Positions 51,962 to 54,867 of a stretch of DNA of 64,000 bases are shown piece by piece. The stretch covers positions 1 to 64,000 of the forward strand of contig NZ_CABHOL010000008.1 in NCBI RefSeq assembly GCF_902168135.1. The letters run 5' to 3'. The position numbers and the translations under genes are program-made. Position 1 is the first letter of the stretch; each line of letters begins with the position of its first letter. The notes beneath the pieces are model-generated. The model did not search any database, had not been told where the DNA came from, and saw only the letters and a list, made by a program, of their open reading frames with translations. The DNA is from an uncultured Fluviicola sp. GTDB lineage: Bacteria > Bacteroidota > Bacteroidia > Flavobacteriales_D > Crocinitomicaceae.

Positions 51962-52011
51962 GCACTATAACACAACTAAAAAACAAGTTGAATAATTGTA
52001 AAATCAATGTG

Positions 52012-52452
52012 ATGACATTTACCATACAAGGGGAATCGGATTATCTCAGACTGACATATCTTGAGGTTTTTGGATTTCCTGATGAAACTGGTCATTGGGG
52101 CGGATACGATGCTCGTGTTAATCTGGAAATCAAGTCCCGAAATTTTCGGGTAAATGAGAGCTTTTACTCGAGTACCGGGGAATTATACGAATTTGCAGAA
52201 AAGTTGAACATTGCCAATCAGCAAATTGATGGAACCGTCGCTTTTAGTTCGTATGAAGGAACTTTGGAATTCACAATCAGTTACAATAAACTAGGACACG
52301 TGACAATCAAAGGGAGATTTTCCGAGCAAAATGATTTCTCCAATGAATTAATCTTTGAATTCTATTCTGATCAATCTTTTATCAGCAGATCCCTGGAAGA
52401 AATTTCGAAGATCACTGAAAAATATGGCGGGATGACCGGGGTAAAACAATAA
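52012..52452 (+). CDS. WapI-like immunity family protein (tentative)
   Basis: 146-residue soluble protein. YLRLTYLEVFGFPDE and HWGGYDARVNLEIKSRNF resemble the N-terminus of small WapI-type immunity proteins of polymorphic toxin systems, with beta-strands throughout. The match is from memory and partial. No toxin gene is adjacent. The start is the ATG at 52012; an upstream TTG at 51988 is less likely. It shares the AT-rich composition of the CPBP gene 50 bases upstream. Confidence 0.5.
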   Translation: MTFTIQGESDYLRLTYLEVFGFPDETGHWGGYDARVNLEIKSRNFRVNESFYSSTGELYEFAEKLNIANQQIDGTVAFSSYEGTLEFTISYNKLGHVTIKGRFSEQNDFSNELIFEFYSDQSFISRSLEEISKITEKYGGMTGVKQ

Positions 52453-52575: not shown

Positions 52576-53853
52576 TTACGAGGCCGGAATCCACCTTCCG
52601 ATGGTAAGTGTTACATCCTGTCCTGATCCCACAGAGTAGTTGGTTTTGGATGGCACATTATTTCCTCCCGACCAGCTTCCTACATTCGGGTTTTCATCCA
52701 GGCTGAATCCATAAGCCATTCCCAGAGTTTTAGCAGAGTTAAGTCCCATAATTATTCCTCCGTGATTTTTTGCGCAGTGGAAAAACTTGGCGTATGCATC
52801 ATAAACACTCGGTTTCTGGTTGTAAGCATTGTTGTGATTTGTGTACCAGTTTTGAATGTTCGTCCATGCCGCAGAGGTATAACCATCAGAAATACTTCCC
52901 CCCTCGCCTACAACTCCGTCCAACAACACTCCGCGTGAAATGGCCTGGAAAATGGCGGCTTCAATTTGGCTGAAAGCATCGTATTCATTTTGATTTTCTC
53001 CTGTTTTGATCCCCCGTACTGCCTGCATGAATCCCTGATCACCGGCAAAATCACTTGCCGGAATGATTATCGTTAATTTGTTTGGTCCGTTAAGTGTAAA
53101 TTTTGTTCCGTCACTAGTCCCTGAATAGGTACCCACTGTGGCAGCGTTCAGGTAAAGATTGAGTTGATTTCCCTTTGTAAAAAAGTCATTGATGGTGTTC
53201 GTCCAATAACCGCTTAGTCCACTGGCACTAGTGTTAATTGCCAGCCAGTCTTTGGGCGAAACAATGGCAGAAAACTGACTCATGATCGAATCAGGATAAC
53301 CGGTACCTGTCGGACTGGTATACAATAATTGCGCGAATGCACTTCCCAGCGGATCTGAACCGGTAAACGTATTAAAAGCTGCTGCAATCTCCGGACGCGA
53401 AACAGCCGGAATCGCTCCATAGACCAGGGAATCGTTCGCTACCGTAAAGGAAAGATTCAAACCGAAAGAATCCACCGCAGATACATCGTACTGGGCATTG
53501 GGGCCAAATTCAAAAATGTCGTAAGGACCCGGAGGACAAACTCCCGGAGCAGCATTAAACGGATAGGCTGTATATCCGGTAGTCGGTGAAAGCGCCGCAG
53601 GTGTGGTTGTAATTTCCGTAACCAGGAACACCAGGCGGTTGTTGCCCAGGTTTGTTACATCCGGTACATTGACCGTCAATCCATCATTGATATTGATATA
53701 ATTGCCGGTGGTTGCTGTAAAATTCCCGTCCGTATTCAGATACATGTAAGCGTCTGACTGCTGGATAAATCCGGCAACCCAAACGGTATATTTAGAAGTA
53801 TCCAGGGAAGTACCATTTTTTAGAGTAATTGTATTAAGTGTAGTTGCTGACAT
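52576..53853 (-). CDS. GH64-like (beta-1,3-glucanase/thaumatin fold) protein without signal peptide
   Basis: 425 residues. The C-terminal part has YDAYAKFFHCAKNHGGIIMG and MAYGFSLDENPNVGSWSGG, resembling the YAKFxH...AYGFPYDD region of glycoside hydrolase family 64; DIFEFGPNAQYDVSAVDSFGL resembles the thaumatin-like DxSxVD segment. GH64 enzymes cut beta-1,3-glucans of fungi or algae. The N-terminus (MSATTLNTITLKNGTSLD) has neither signal peptide nor lipobox, so export would need another route or the protein acts inside the cell. Catalytic residues could not be confirmed. Preceded by the leader described at 53871-53944. Confidence 0.65.
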   Translation of the reverse strand: MSATTLNTITLKNGTSLDTSKYTVWVAGFIQQSDAYMYLNTDGNFTATTGNYININDGLTVNVPDVTNLGNNRLVFLVTEITTTPAALSPTTGYTAYPFNAAPGVCPPGPYDIFEFGPNAQYDVSAVDSFGLNLSFTVANDSLVYGAIPAVSRPEIAAAFNTFTGSDPLGSAFAQLLYTSPTGTGYPDSIMSQFSAIVSPKDWLAINTSASGLSGYWTNTINDFFTKGNQLNLYLNAATVGTYSGTSDGTKFTLNGPNKLTIIIPASDFAGDQGFMQAVRGIKTGENQNEYDAFSQIEAAIFQAISRGVLLDGVVGEGGSISDGYTSAAWTNIQNWYTNHNNAYNQKPSVYDAYAKFFHCAKNHGGIIMGLNSAKTLGMAYGFSLDENPNVGSWSGGNNVPSKTNYSVGSGQDVTLTIGRWIPAS

Positions 53854-53870
53854 AAGCTATCATTTTTTAG

Positions 53871-53944
53871 TCCTACTCGTATGGCTTTTCGGGTTACGCC
53901 TCCTGTTGAGTTGACCGAACAGGAACAGCTTTTATTTCAAGTGG
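53871..53944 (-). promoter_or_regulatory. conserved leader element, copy A
   Basis: Lies 17 nt before the ATG of the GH64-like gene. On the minus strand it has a TCCTGTT/AACAGGA hairpin with loop CGGTCAACTC, then AGGAGGCG, the box AACCCGAAAAGCC, and a small hairpin with loop CGAG. ACTC in the first loop can pair with GAGT in the second (possible pseudoknot). Copy B at 54577-54653 is nearly the same, with differences mostly in loops or matched arms. Confidence 0.6.
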
Positions 53945-53952
53945 TTTTATTG

Positions 53953-53988
53953 TAAAACCGGCCCTGACAAAAAGCAAGAGCCGGTTCT
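53953..53988 (-). terminator. terminator after the AidA/PixA-like gene
   Basis: AACCGGC (53956-53962) and GCCGGTT (53980-53986) form the stem; on the minus strand a TTTTA tail follows. It lies 20 bases after the stop of the gene at 54008. Confidence 0.7.
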
Positions 53989-54007
53989 TCAGTGTATTTC
54001 CGGTCAA

Positions 54008-54559
54008 TTAGTTATTAACGTTAATGAACGGATCCCAAAGATAGTAGCCAATAACAGCTCCGGTTTGGGTATTTAATACTGCAAAAGACATGTTGTATTG
54101 TGTCGATCCTGCTCCGTTAACCTGGAACAGCCATTGCGCACAAATAAATGTATTCGGGTTACCGGCATTCGGATACCCGGAAGGAATTTTATTGGCAAAT
54201 TGCGGTTGACTTCCTGATCCTCCGGATTGGAGGCAGTAGTTTGTCCATTCCGCCGTGTTCGGACCTAAACTTCTTACGTTGGCATTACTTAATGCTGTGT
54301 TGTAAAGTACCGGGTAATAATTTTGACCTGCTCCGGGAGCTGAAATAGTGAAGACAATTTCATCCCCGACATTAGCAGAAATGGTTAATTCTGATCCGCC
54401 CTGGTCATTTACAACAGCACTTCCCTGTGCCATCATTTCTACGTAAACATCAGAAGAACTATAGCTTCCCAAGCTAATTGGAGCATTCCACGAACCTCCC
54501 GGTTTACTTTGTGCGAGTGTAATTGCGTCGACTGTAATTGCGACAAAAATTTGTGCCAT
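54008..54559 (-). CDS. AidA/PixA family (inclusion body) protein
   Basis: 183 residues, beta-rich, without signal peptide. It opens MAQIFVAITVDAITLAQ (compare VDILVVIDTE in PixA/AidA) and closes with TGAVIGYYLWDPFINVNN, the YYxWDPFI family ending. Proteins of the family form crystalline inclusions or are controlled by quorum sensing in other bacteria; function unknown. The segment WTNYCLQ carries one of two cysteines. It is preceded, at the same 17-nt distance, by the same leader as the GH64-like gene, so the two are probably co-regulated. Confidence 0.72.
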   Translation of the reverse strand: MAQIFVAITVDAITLAQSKPGGSWNAPISLGSYSSSDVYVEMMAQGSAVVNDQGGSELTISANVGDEIVFTISAPGAGQNYYPVLYNTALSNANVRSLGPNTAEWTNYCLQSGGSGSQPQFANKIPSGYPNAGNPNTFICAQWLFQVNGAGSTQYNMSFAVLNTQTGAVIGYYLWDPFINVNN

Positions 54560-54576
54560 AATGGGTAGTTTAAATT

Positions 54577-54653
54577 TCCTTACTCATAAGGCTTTTCGGG
54601 TTCCGCCTCCTGTTTGAGTTGACTGAACAGGAACAGTCTGTTTTTTGAGTGGT
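54577..54653 (-). promoter_or_regulatory. conserved leader element, copy B
   Basis: Lies 17 nt before the ATG of the AidA/PixA-like gene. Same order as copy A: TCCTGTT/AACAGGA hairpin with loop CAGTCAACTCA, AGGAGGCG, AACCCGAAAAGCC, then a CCTTA-TGAG-TAAGG hairpin. The last stem differs in sequence but not in pairing from copy A. The sequence upstream (54654-54740) contains CTTACTTTG on the minus strand, one change from the -7 consensus. Confidence 0.62.
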
Positions 54654-54867
54654 CCAGCTCCACTGCTATAAGGTTGCAACACTTACTGAACAAGACAAAG
54701 TAAGAGCAATATGATGGGAATTCTTTACACAGAAATACCGGTTTTAAAAAACAGGTATTTTTATCTGGTTTTTAGATTTAGAGGTATGATTATTTTGAGA
54801 ACTTATTTATACTTATAAATTCAGCACAAGTATTTATATTTGATGTCAAATACTAAAAACACATTTT

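Follow-up and report, generated by a model that had tools for sequence, protein, structure and literature searches.

Two near-identical leaders in a Fluviicola genome as probable DUF805/DUF805b-clan RNAs with an inserted pseudoknot

The closest described systems are the DUF805 RNAs (RF03081) and the DUF805b RNAs (RF02914) of Rfam clan CL00115. To our knowledge, DUF805 RNAs are an Rfam family without a known function; they were reportedly described by Weinberg et al. in 2017 in Nucleic Acids Research. A literature search returned no title or abstract dealing with the DUF805/DUF805b RNA family, and one machine-learning paper that includes RF02914. The RF02914 model spans 35 nt and describes the core GGCGnnACCGAAAAGCC...GAGUAGG shortly 5′ of ORFs, with the box CCGAAAAGCC, a GGC/GCC pairing and GAGUAGG as its features. 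In RF03081, a 5′ hairpin GUGGAG..CCAC is followed by an A-rich bridge, AACGG, the core and GAGUAGG, and hairpin and core are joined through AACGGGGCG without an insert. Small H-type pseudoknot riboswitches of the preQ1 class are likewise compact pseudoknots in the 5′ leader, close to the start codon; the element analysed here differs from them in that no Rfam match to such riboswitches was present in the window (the whole stretch of DNA analysed, 64,000 nt) and no conserved partner for GAGUAGG was found.

On the minus strand of the window, two near-identical leaders, copy A and copy B, were each located before an unrelated gene, as the original prediction had stated, and both of the elements noted there end 17 nt before their own ATG. 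The core is nearly the same in the two copies and the outer flanks differ. The gene behind copy B (54008-54559, minus strand) encodes a 183-aa inclusion body protein of the PixA/AidA type (Pfam PF12306, 6.9e-15), in agreement with the identity proposed for it. Behind copy A, an ORF at 52576-53853 (minus strand) encodes a 425-aa protein without a family match. A GH64-like identity had been suggested for this protein and was not borne out: a Pfam search gave no match, the best PDB match had an E value of 0.46 and the AlphaFold model was poor (pLDDT 39.8). Just beyond this ORF, at 51988-52452, lies a gene for a WapI-like immunity protein (PF24716, 4.2e-24). Between the PixA gene and copy A, where a terminator had been expected, a terminator-like hairpin was indeed present (53954-53988, minus strand; -20.6 kcal/mol, z -4.55); it was not among the predictions of a simple terminator scan, and sister species have a similar hairpin of differing bases at this position.

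At the Rfam gathering threshold the window yielded only a tRNA, and the two leaders surfaced when an E-value threshold was used. RF02914 was the best match of both, at 54577-54609 for copy B (31.6 bits, E 7.8e-7) and 53870-53902 for copy A (28.6 bits, E 8.5e-6), each below the cutoff of 35.6. Same-genus copies scored above this cutoff in L005 (39.2) and, for one of two copies each, in L010 (36.0) and L017 (39.5), and canonical relatives elsewhere matched RF03081 with up to 90.2 bits. A covariance model of the core, R1, was built from 41 sequences; it recovered copy A with an E value of 1.9e-10 and copy B with 3.4e-10, both copies being among those 41. Within the window, GAGGCGNAACCCGAAAAGCC with up to three mismatches occurred at exactly two sites against 0.02 expected, and the longer box AACAGGAGGCGNAACCCGAAAAGCC, with the same tolerance, was found genome-wide only in copies A and B. 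A third and more distant copy was revealed by R1 elsewhere in this genome, at C34:91905-91949 (E 1.2e-5), with a 134-aa ORF behind it. The element is not new, DUF805 and DUF805b RNAs being already in Rfam; judged by homology, the window copies belong to clan CL00115 and are filed as a variant below the curated cutoff.

Read along the minus strand, copy B starts with a hairpin, P0 (AGTGG-AGCTGGA-CCACT, 54648-54664), which appears to be the homologue of the first DUF805 hairpin in a short-loop form; the extent originally given to the element was too narrow, since this additional 5′ hairpin belongs to it. An H-type pseudoknot of the order a-b-a′-b′, PK2, occupies 54607-54638, with a at 54634-54638 (GACTG), b at 54626-54633 (TTCCTGTT), a′ at 54621-54625 (CAGTC), a loop at 54615-54620 and b′ at 54607-54614 (AACAGGAG). 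The DUF805 core covers 54578-54607, with GGC at 54605-54607, CCGAAAAGCC at 54590-54599 and GAGTAAG at 54579-54585. Copy A, also on the minus strand, has its core at 53872-53900 (GGC 53898-53900, CCGAAAAGCC 53883-53892, GAGTAGG 53872-53878) and PK2 at 53900-53929 (a 53926-53929, GCTG; b 53918-53925, TTCCTGTT; a′ 53914-53917, CGGT; b′ 53900-53907, AACAGGAG). At the position of P0, a hairpin with a non-canonical loop, GGTTTTA-CAA-TAAAACC (53943-53959), was read from the sequence; it overlaps the 3′ arm of the terminator-like hairpin, and sister genomes have a similar pairing with other bases at this place. The segments TCCTGTT and AACAGGA, which had been taken for a plain hairpin, do pair, as stem b of PK2.

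The features of RF02914 were thus present in both copies, with copy B reading GAGTAAG for GAGUAGG, and so was its cis position, at 17 nt from the ATG. The window copies differ from the 35-nt model in carrying P0 and PK2. The GUGG..CCAC hairpin of RF03081 was recognized in copy B, and copy A has another hairpin there. Compared with DUF805 RNA, the hairpin of the window type is either short-looped (B) or of a different kind (A), and PK2 intervenes between AACGG and GGCG where RF03081 has no insert. A PK2 at this place was observed in the window copies and in relatives from several lineages, and it is printed in neither Rfam model.

A search for the element in other genomes had been proposed as a check, and it proved to be present. 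Of 150 genomes from the window's family, 56 contained the exact pattern CCGAAAAGCCN{2,10}GAGTAGG and one contained the reversed control pattern. At least 120 stretches matched in a genome collection; the 80 titles listed comprised 73 Bacteroidota lineages, one Ignavibacteria and six others; the latter included records from Spirulina and Opitutaceae, in which the sites lack an ORF by the rule used. With R1, matches were obtained in 11 of 14 genomes of the genus (E<=0.001), in at least 87 of 249 of the order (E<=1e-5) and in at least 44 of 247 of a sample of the phylum Bacteroidota (E<=1e-4), the last two being lower bounds because of the stricter filters. Carriers in the phylum sample had one to six matches each. 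A DNA search for the leader in plasmids gave no match. Full DUF805 leaders of 62.2 and 61.9 bits, respectively, were found before a small gene in the Bradyrhizobium plasmid pNK6d (L363:510-605) and in Pseudomonas huaxiensis (L075:5970-6060). The small gene, which we take to be cystatin-like, has no Pfam family, and in both records a Shine-Dalgarno-like GGAGA lies between GAGTAGG and the ATG. In these Shine-Dalgarno-using Proteobacteria the leader has been kept, although apparently not as the actual ribosome-binding signal. Sites similar to the proteobacterial ones were also seen in six IMG/VR contigs.

For the analysis of the fold, 271 distinct sites were collected by matching an expression in which most of the core is fixed; the invariance of the core is therefore partly by construction. 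P0 was recognized by rule in 118 of these, and 69 were canonical, having a long loop and the tail AACnnGG; all 69 were aligned. Across P0, the GGC/GCC pairing and PK1, a pairing of the first hairpin's loop with the CGG before the core, 99.0% of cells were paired and 34 were double-changed (0 of 500 shuffles), with the reading that P0 pairing was required in the choice of rows, which makes its 100% pairing circular and 25 of the 34 double changes partly circular. All four P0 pairs show changes on both sides, the outer pair being G-C in 44 sequences, A-U in 17, G-U in four and U-A in two, and the GGC/GCC pairing of the core had no double changes.

PK1 had not been used in the choice of rows. It consists of two pairs only, column pair 8-34 (C-G 56, U-A 6, U-G 5, A-U 1, other 1) and column pair 9-33 (C-G 59, U-G 3, A-U 1, G-U 1, other 5), leaving 6 of 138 cells unpaired. 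Nine double-changed cells were counted in the 69 sequences, kinship being ignored, a number reached in 0 of 500 shuffles; both pairs were double-changed at least once in 106 of the 500 shuffles as well. When the partner was slid by +1 to +3 or by -1 there were no double changes, and one at -2 or -3. The paired share itself was 95.7%, against 94.9% with the partner slid by +2, where a run of G lies. A subset of 62 rows gave the same outcome as all 69. Compensatory changes in these alignments therefore support PK1 in canonical DUF805 RNAs, a pairing absent from the structure line printed by the Rfam model.

The inserted pseudoknot was re-paired with other bases in other lineages. The form GACTG-TTCCTGTT-CAGTC-loop-AACAGGAG of copy B is paralleled by GACTG-TTCTCAT-CAGTC-ATGAGAG in Aquirufa (L083), ACCCT-TCCAC-AGGGT-GTGGA in L144 and CTGT-CCTGCA-ACAG-TGCAGG in an Ignavibacteria record (L070). 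In a scan of 205 sites, copy B scored 30.8 and copy A 25.4; the highest score among 1025 control shuffles was 22.9. Because MAFFT alignments of PK2 sites slip out of register, pairs were counted in a hand register of 18 rows that had been chosen because they pair: in these, 122 of 122 cells of the b stem (one bulged cell set aside) and 75 of 84 cells of the a stem were paired, and seven of the eight b positions showed two to five pair types. The 18 rows do not include L049, whose pairing is poorer, or L260, which was found later; a subsequent count of their b cells gave 4/5 and 5/5.

An insertion class was also defined by architecture alone, as P0 by rule with more than 36 nt after it. This gave 22 rows, 20 of them testable, and PK2 was detected in 13 at p<=0.01 and in 15 at p<=0.05. 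The five failures had P0 calls unlike the canonical GTGG hairpin, and the 15 successes, counted with kinship ignored, comprised nine from the window's genus (five of them copies of one leader) and six from elsewhere. Copy B had p 0.0033, the smallest value possible with 300 shuffles; copy A lay outside this test, for which a canonical P0 is needed. The P0 loop was short in 15 rows of the insertion class and long in seven, some of the latter being doubtful P0 calls, against 70 long and five short loops with the canonical tail. It is as if PK2 stood in for PK1. Both pseudoknots are new only in that neither is in the structure lines printed for the Rfam models and that no paper on the family was found. 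Of 20 insertion-class sites in 16 loci, five scored high enough for the DUF805b cutoff and none for that of DUF805; at their cutoffs, the Rfam models thus miss part of the family.

An H-type pseudoknot had also been part of the original prediction, formed there by the loop ACTC and the last loop GAGT. That the RNA contains H-type pseudoknots was supported, for two different ones; the ACTC/GAGT pairing itself was not, ACTC being present in 4 of 18 pseudoknot loops. Nor was ACTC enriched upstream, where it occurred at 37 of 267 sites versus 40.6 in shuffles, and at 31 versus 28 of 266 in a comparison with far-upstream DNA. A terminal hairpin, likewise proposed as a conserved feature, was rejected as such: it had at most two gapless pairs in 152 of 271 sites, with two in copy A and five in copy B.

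Copying of a segment could account for the likeness of the two leaders, and within the genus the paralogous leaders of the window, L009 and L010 have the b stem TTCCTGTT/AACAGGAG in common. As an explanation of the leaders this is very improbable: the genes behind them are unrelated, and the element recurs across the phylum with stems that have changed and re-paired. Duplication is contradicted for the family, although copy A or copy B may have originated in this way. The copy-A gene was found in five of 14 genomes of the genus (four of 13 besides the window's). In G002, whose orthologue is 97% identical in protein sequence, PK2 and the core have been lost; in G011 (65%), P0 and PK2 are kept, with the b stem re-paired as TTTCTGTT/AACAGAAA (read by eye), and the core is degenerate. 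The element therefore appears to be dispensable for the copy-A gene. The corresponding upstream regions, L359 and L362, represent natural loss variants.

The position of the element relative to the following gene was narrowly set. Among 182 sites, nine of which had no ORF, the start codon lay 15-29 nt past GAGTAGG in 141 of the 173 with an ORF. In 156 sites the median distance was 21 nt. A made up 51% of the linker and G 5.6%, and an adenine stood at -3 in 67% of these sites, at -11 in 72% and at -12 in 74%. Published studies describe Bacteroidota as largely without Shine-Dalgarno pairing (PMC6847099, PMC9976891) and, for Flavobacterium johnsoniae, report adenines at -3, -6, -12 and -13 in well-translated genes and a region from about -20 to +20 that tends to be less paired (PMC6847099). 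Taken with the spacing of about 21 nt, these F. johnsoniae data would place the element just outside the initiation footprint.

Upstream, an ORF of 70 aa or more on the same strand ended within 100 nt 5′ of CGAAAAG at 27 of 183 sites and within 60 nt at 16 of 183, a few of these ORFs being possibly spurious. In L013, L126 and L147 it ended 17-19 nt before CGAAAAG, a gap too short to hold a promoter ahead of the core. At the other 156 of 183 sites no long same-strand ORF ended within 100 nt, so that the element may also act on the 5′ end of the transcript. The -7 consensus is given as TAnnTTTG (PMC9723704). Upstream of P0 in 61 sites, TAnnTTT was found 31 times versus 14.2 expected (0 of 200 mononucleotide shuffles), TTTG 32 times versus 18.1 (1 of 200) and the strict TAnnTTTG five times versus 2.0 (8 of 200); measured from the core, the strict form was not clearly enriched and had no fixed place.

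A DNA operator or an alternative-sigma promoter, which the original prediction had kept as an alternative, would be compatible with the weakness of the upstream sigma-A signal and with the intergenic position, which is usual for promoters too. It is nevertheless highly unlikely given the compensatory changes, which lie in helices of a single strand and in pseudoknots, the variable gap of 3 to 10 nt between the two conserved boxes in the sites examined, the enrichment of TAnnTTT upstream of P0, and the sites that lie directly behind other genes, at 17-19 nt in the three loci above. The proposal of a cis-regulatory RNA fits the data better, with relatives in many genomes, membership of clan CL00115 and covariation among the matches, another of the proposed checks, in the 5′ hairpin and the two pseudoknots.

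We consider that each copy is probably a transcribed, cis-acting 5′ leader of the DUF805/DUF805b clan with an extra H-type pseudoknot, acting at translation initiation (rough probability 0.6). The leader would be transcribed together with its gene and fold into three parts: P0 as the 5′ hairpin, PK2 as the insert, and a compact core with the GGC...GCC pairing. This fold would keep GAGUAGG, which is near-invariant, immediately beyond the initiation footprint of the ribosome, about 21 nt before the AUG and followed by a G-poor, A-rich stretch, and would act on translation initiation of each cistron separately, so that the leaders probably tune the translation strength of the following gene. Word tests gave no alternative helix that would sequester GAGUAGG, and an on/off switch would be no more than a possibility. 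The comparative sequence evidence supports the RNA fold, the fixed distance to the AUG, the unrelated targets and the location of sites directly behind same-strand genes; the spacing to the start codon, linker, upstream ORFs and the sigma-A-like signal together favour a transcribed leader that acts on translation of its own cistron. The one to six matches per phylum carrier, and the retention of the leader on the gene found in Proteobacteria, suggest that it may respond to a general cue (the ribosome, or a ligand or ion that is ubiquitous) and not to a protein partner of its own.

The same structures might instead shield the 5′ end of the mRNA, or of a cleavage product after an intercistronic hairpin, the tandem pseudoknots then serving as a stability or processing element. 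Knotted 5′ structures, the position of copy A directly 3′ of a strong hairpin, and the location of P0 towards the 5′ end, downstream of a weak promoter signal, would all suit such a role. We regard it as unlikely, as it leaves the tight AUG distance and the conserved GAGUAGG unexplained.

The leaders were followed by very diverse genes. When 150 of 170 downstream proteins were scanned (20 were left out as same-genus copies, tandem repeats, viral-contig or doubtful frames), 56 Pfam families were obtained, the largest groups being AHSA1 (6), PixA (5), two outer-membrane barrel models (5 each) and rhodopsin (3), and no metabolic theme was found among the 150. Single NCBIfam matches at E<=0.001 were aquaporin Z, OAA lectin, pinensin leader, gasdermin and caspase, the last below its curated cutoff. 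The PK2 class stands before PixA genes in the window's genus and in the Ignavibacteria record L070; six other proteins of this class comprised one outer-membrane barrel and five without a Pfam family. A fixed distance to the AUG combined with so wide a range of targets points to action at translation initiation.

An orphan riboswitch for a metabolite or an ion, with a ligand pocket built from the pseudoknots and the conserved core and with access to the start region altered on binding, is a possible reading that we hold with some reserve. A compact multi-pseudoknot fold, a strongly conserved core and the retention of the leader in the Proteobacteria records would agree with it, as would the diverse regulon; second-messenger riboswitches also have diverse regulons. 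The lack of a metabolic theme among the genes speaks against it. Word tests found no conserved upstream word complementary to GAGTAGG, hence no anti-sequence that could serve as an expression platform, and a terminator would have little room in linkers that are about 21 nt long and contain 5.6% G. An apparent depletion of GAGTAGG-complementary words was rejected, as it was not robust against a far-upstream control.

On a wider and equally tentative view, the DUF805-clan leaders might form a phylum-wide, portable translation-control module that can be moved in front of any gene. In it, a knotted RNA docked immediately 5′ of the initiation footprint would offer GAGUAGG either to the platform of the 30S subunit or to some ubiquitous ligand, and the pseudoknot part would be interchangeable, the canonical form using PK1 where that of the window uses PK2. 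If true, this would suit bacteria that largely lack Shine-Dalgarno pairing, with targets from PixA to rhodopsins and RiPP-like precursors. PK1 and PK2 supply a testable fold for DUF805 RNAs. If confirmed, the element would provide Bacteroidota with an RNA part for regulating or boosting expression.

Complementarity of the core to the organism's own 16S rRNA was set aside. Neither GAGTAGG nor CCGAAAAGCC had a Watson-Crick match to it; of four core strings, two formed duplexes stronger than all 100 shuffles, and the others were matched or beaten by 17 and 71 of 100, the stronger duplexes lying at different 16S places. The 3′ tail of this 16S rRNA (L252, G000:C34:2191-3715) reads GGAACATCTCCTTTCT, giving an anti-Shine-Dalgarno of the CUCC type and not the usual CCUCC.

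Some individual loci are also of note. In Chryseobacterium endalhagicum (L126:4537-6501), two DUF805b-like elements follow one another. The first precedes a caspase-like gene (NF047832, below the curated cutoff), and the CGAAAAG of the second lies 17 nt past the stop codon of that gene. DUF805-clan cores precede rhodopsin-like genes in L055, L087 and L139 (Bac_rhodopsin, 3 of 150; loci assigned by eye). Elements before short peptides were seen in L036, with three tandem copies, L061, L063, L138, L140 and L145, and several of these peptides have GG-type leaders and, by eye, resemble RiPP or bacteriocin precursors.
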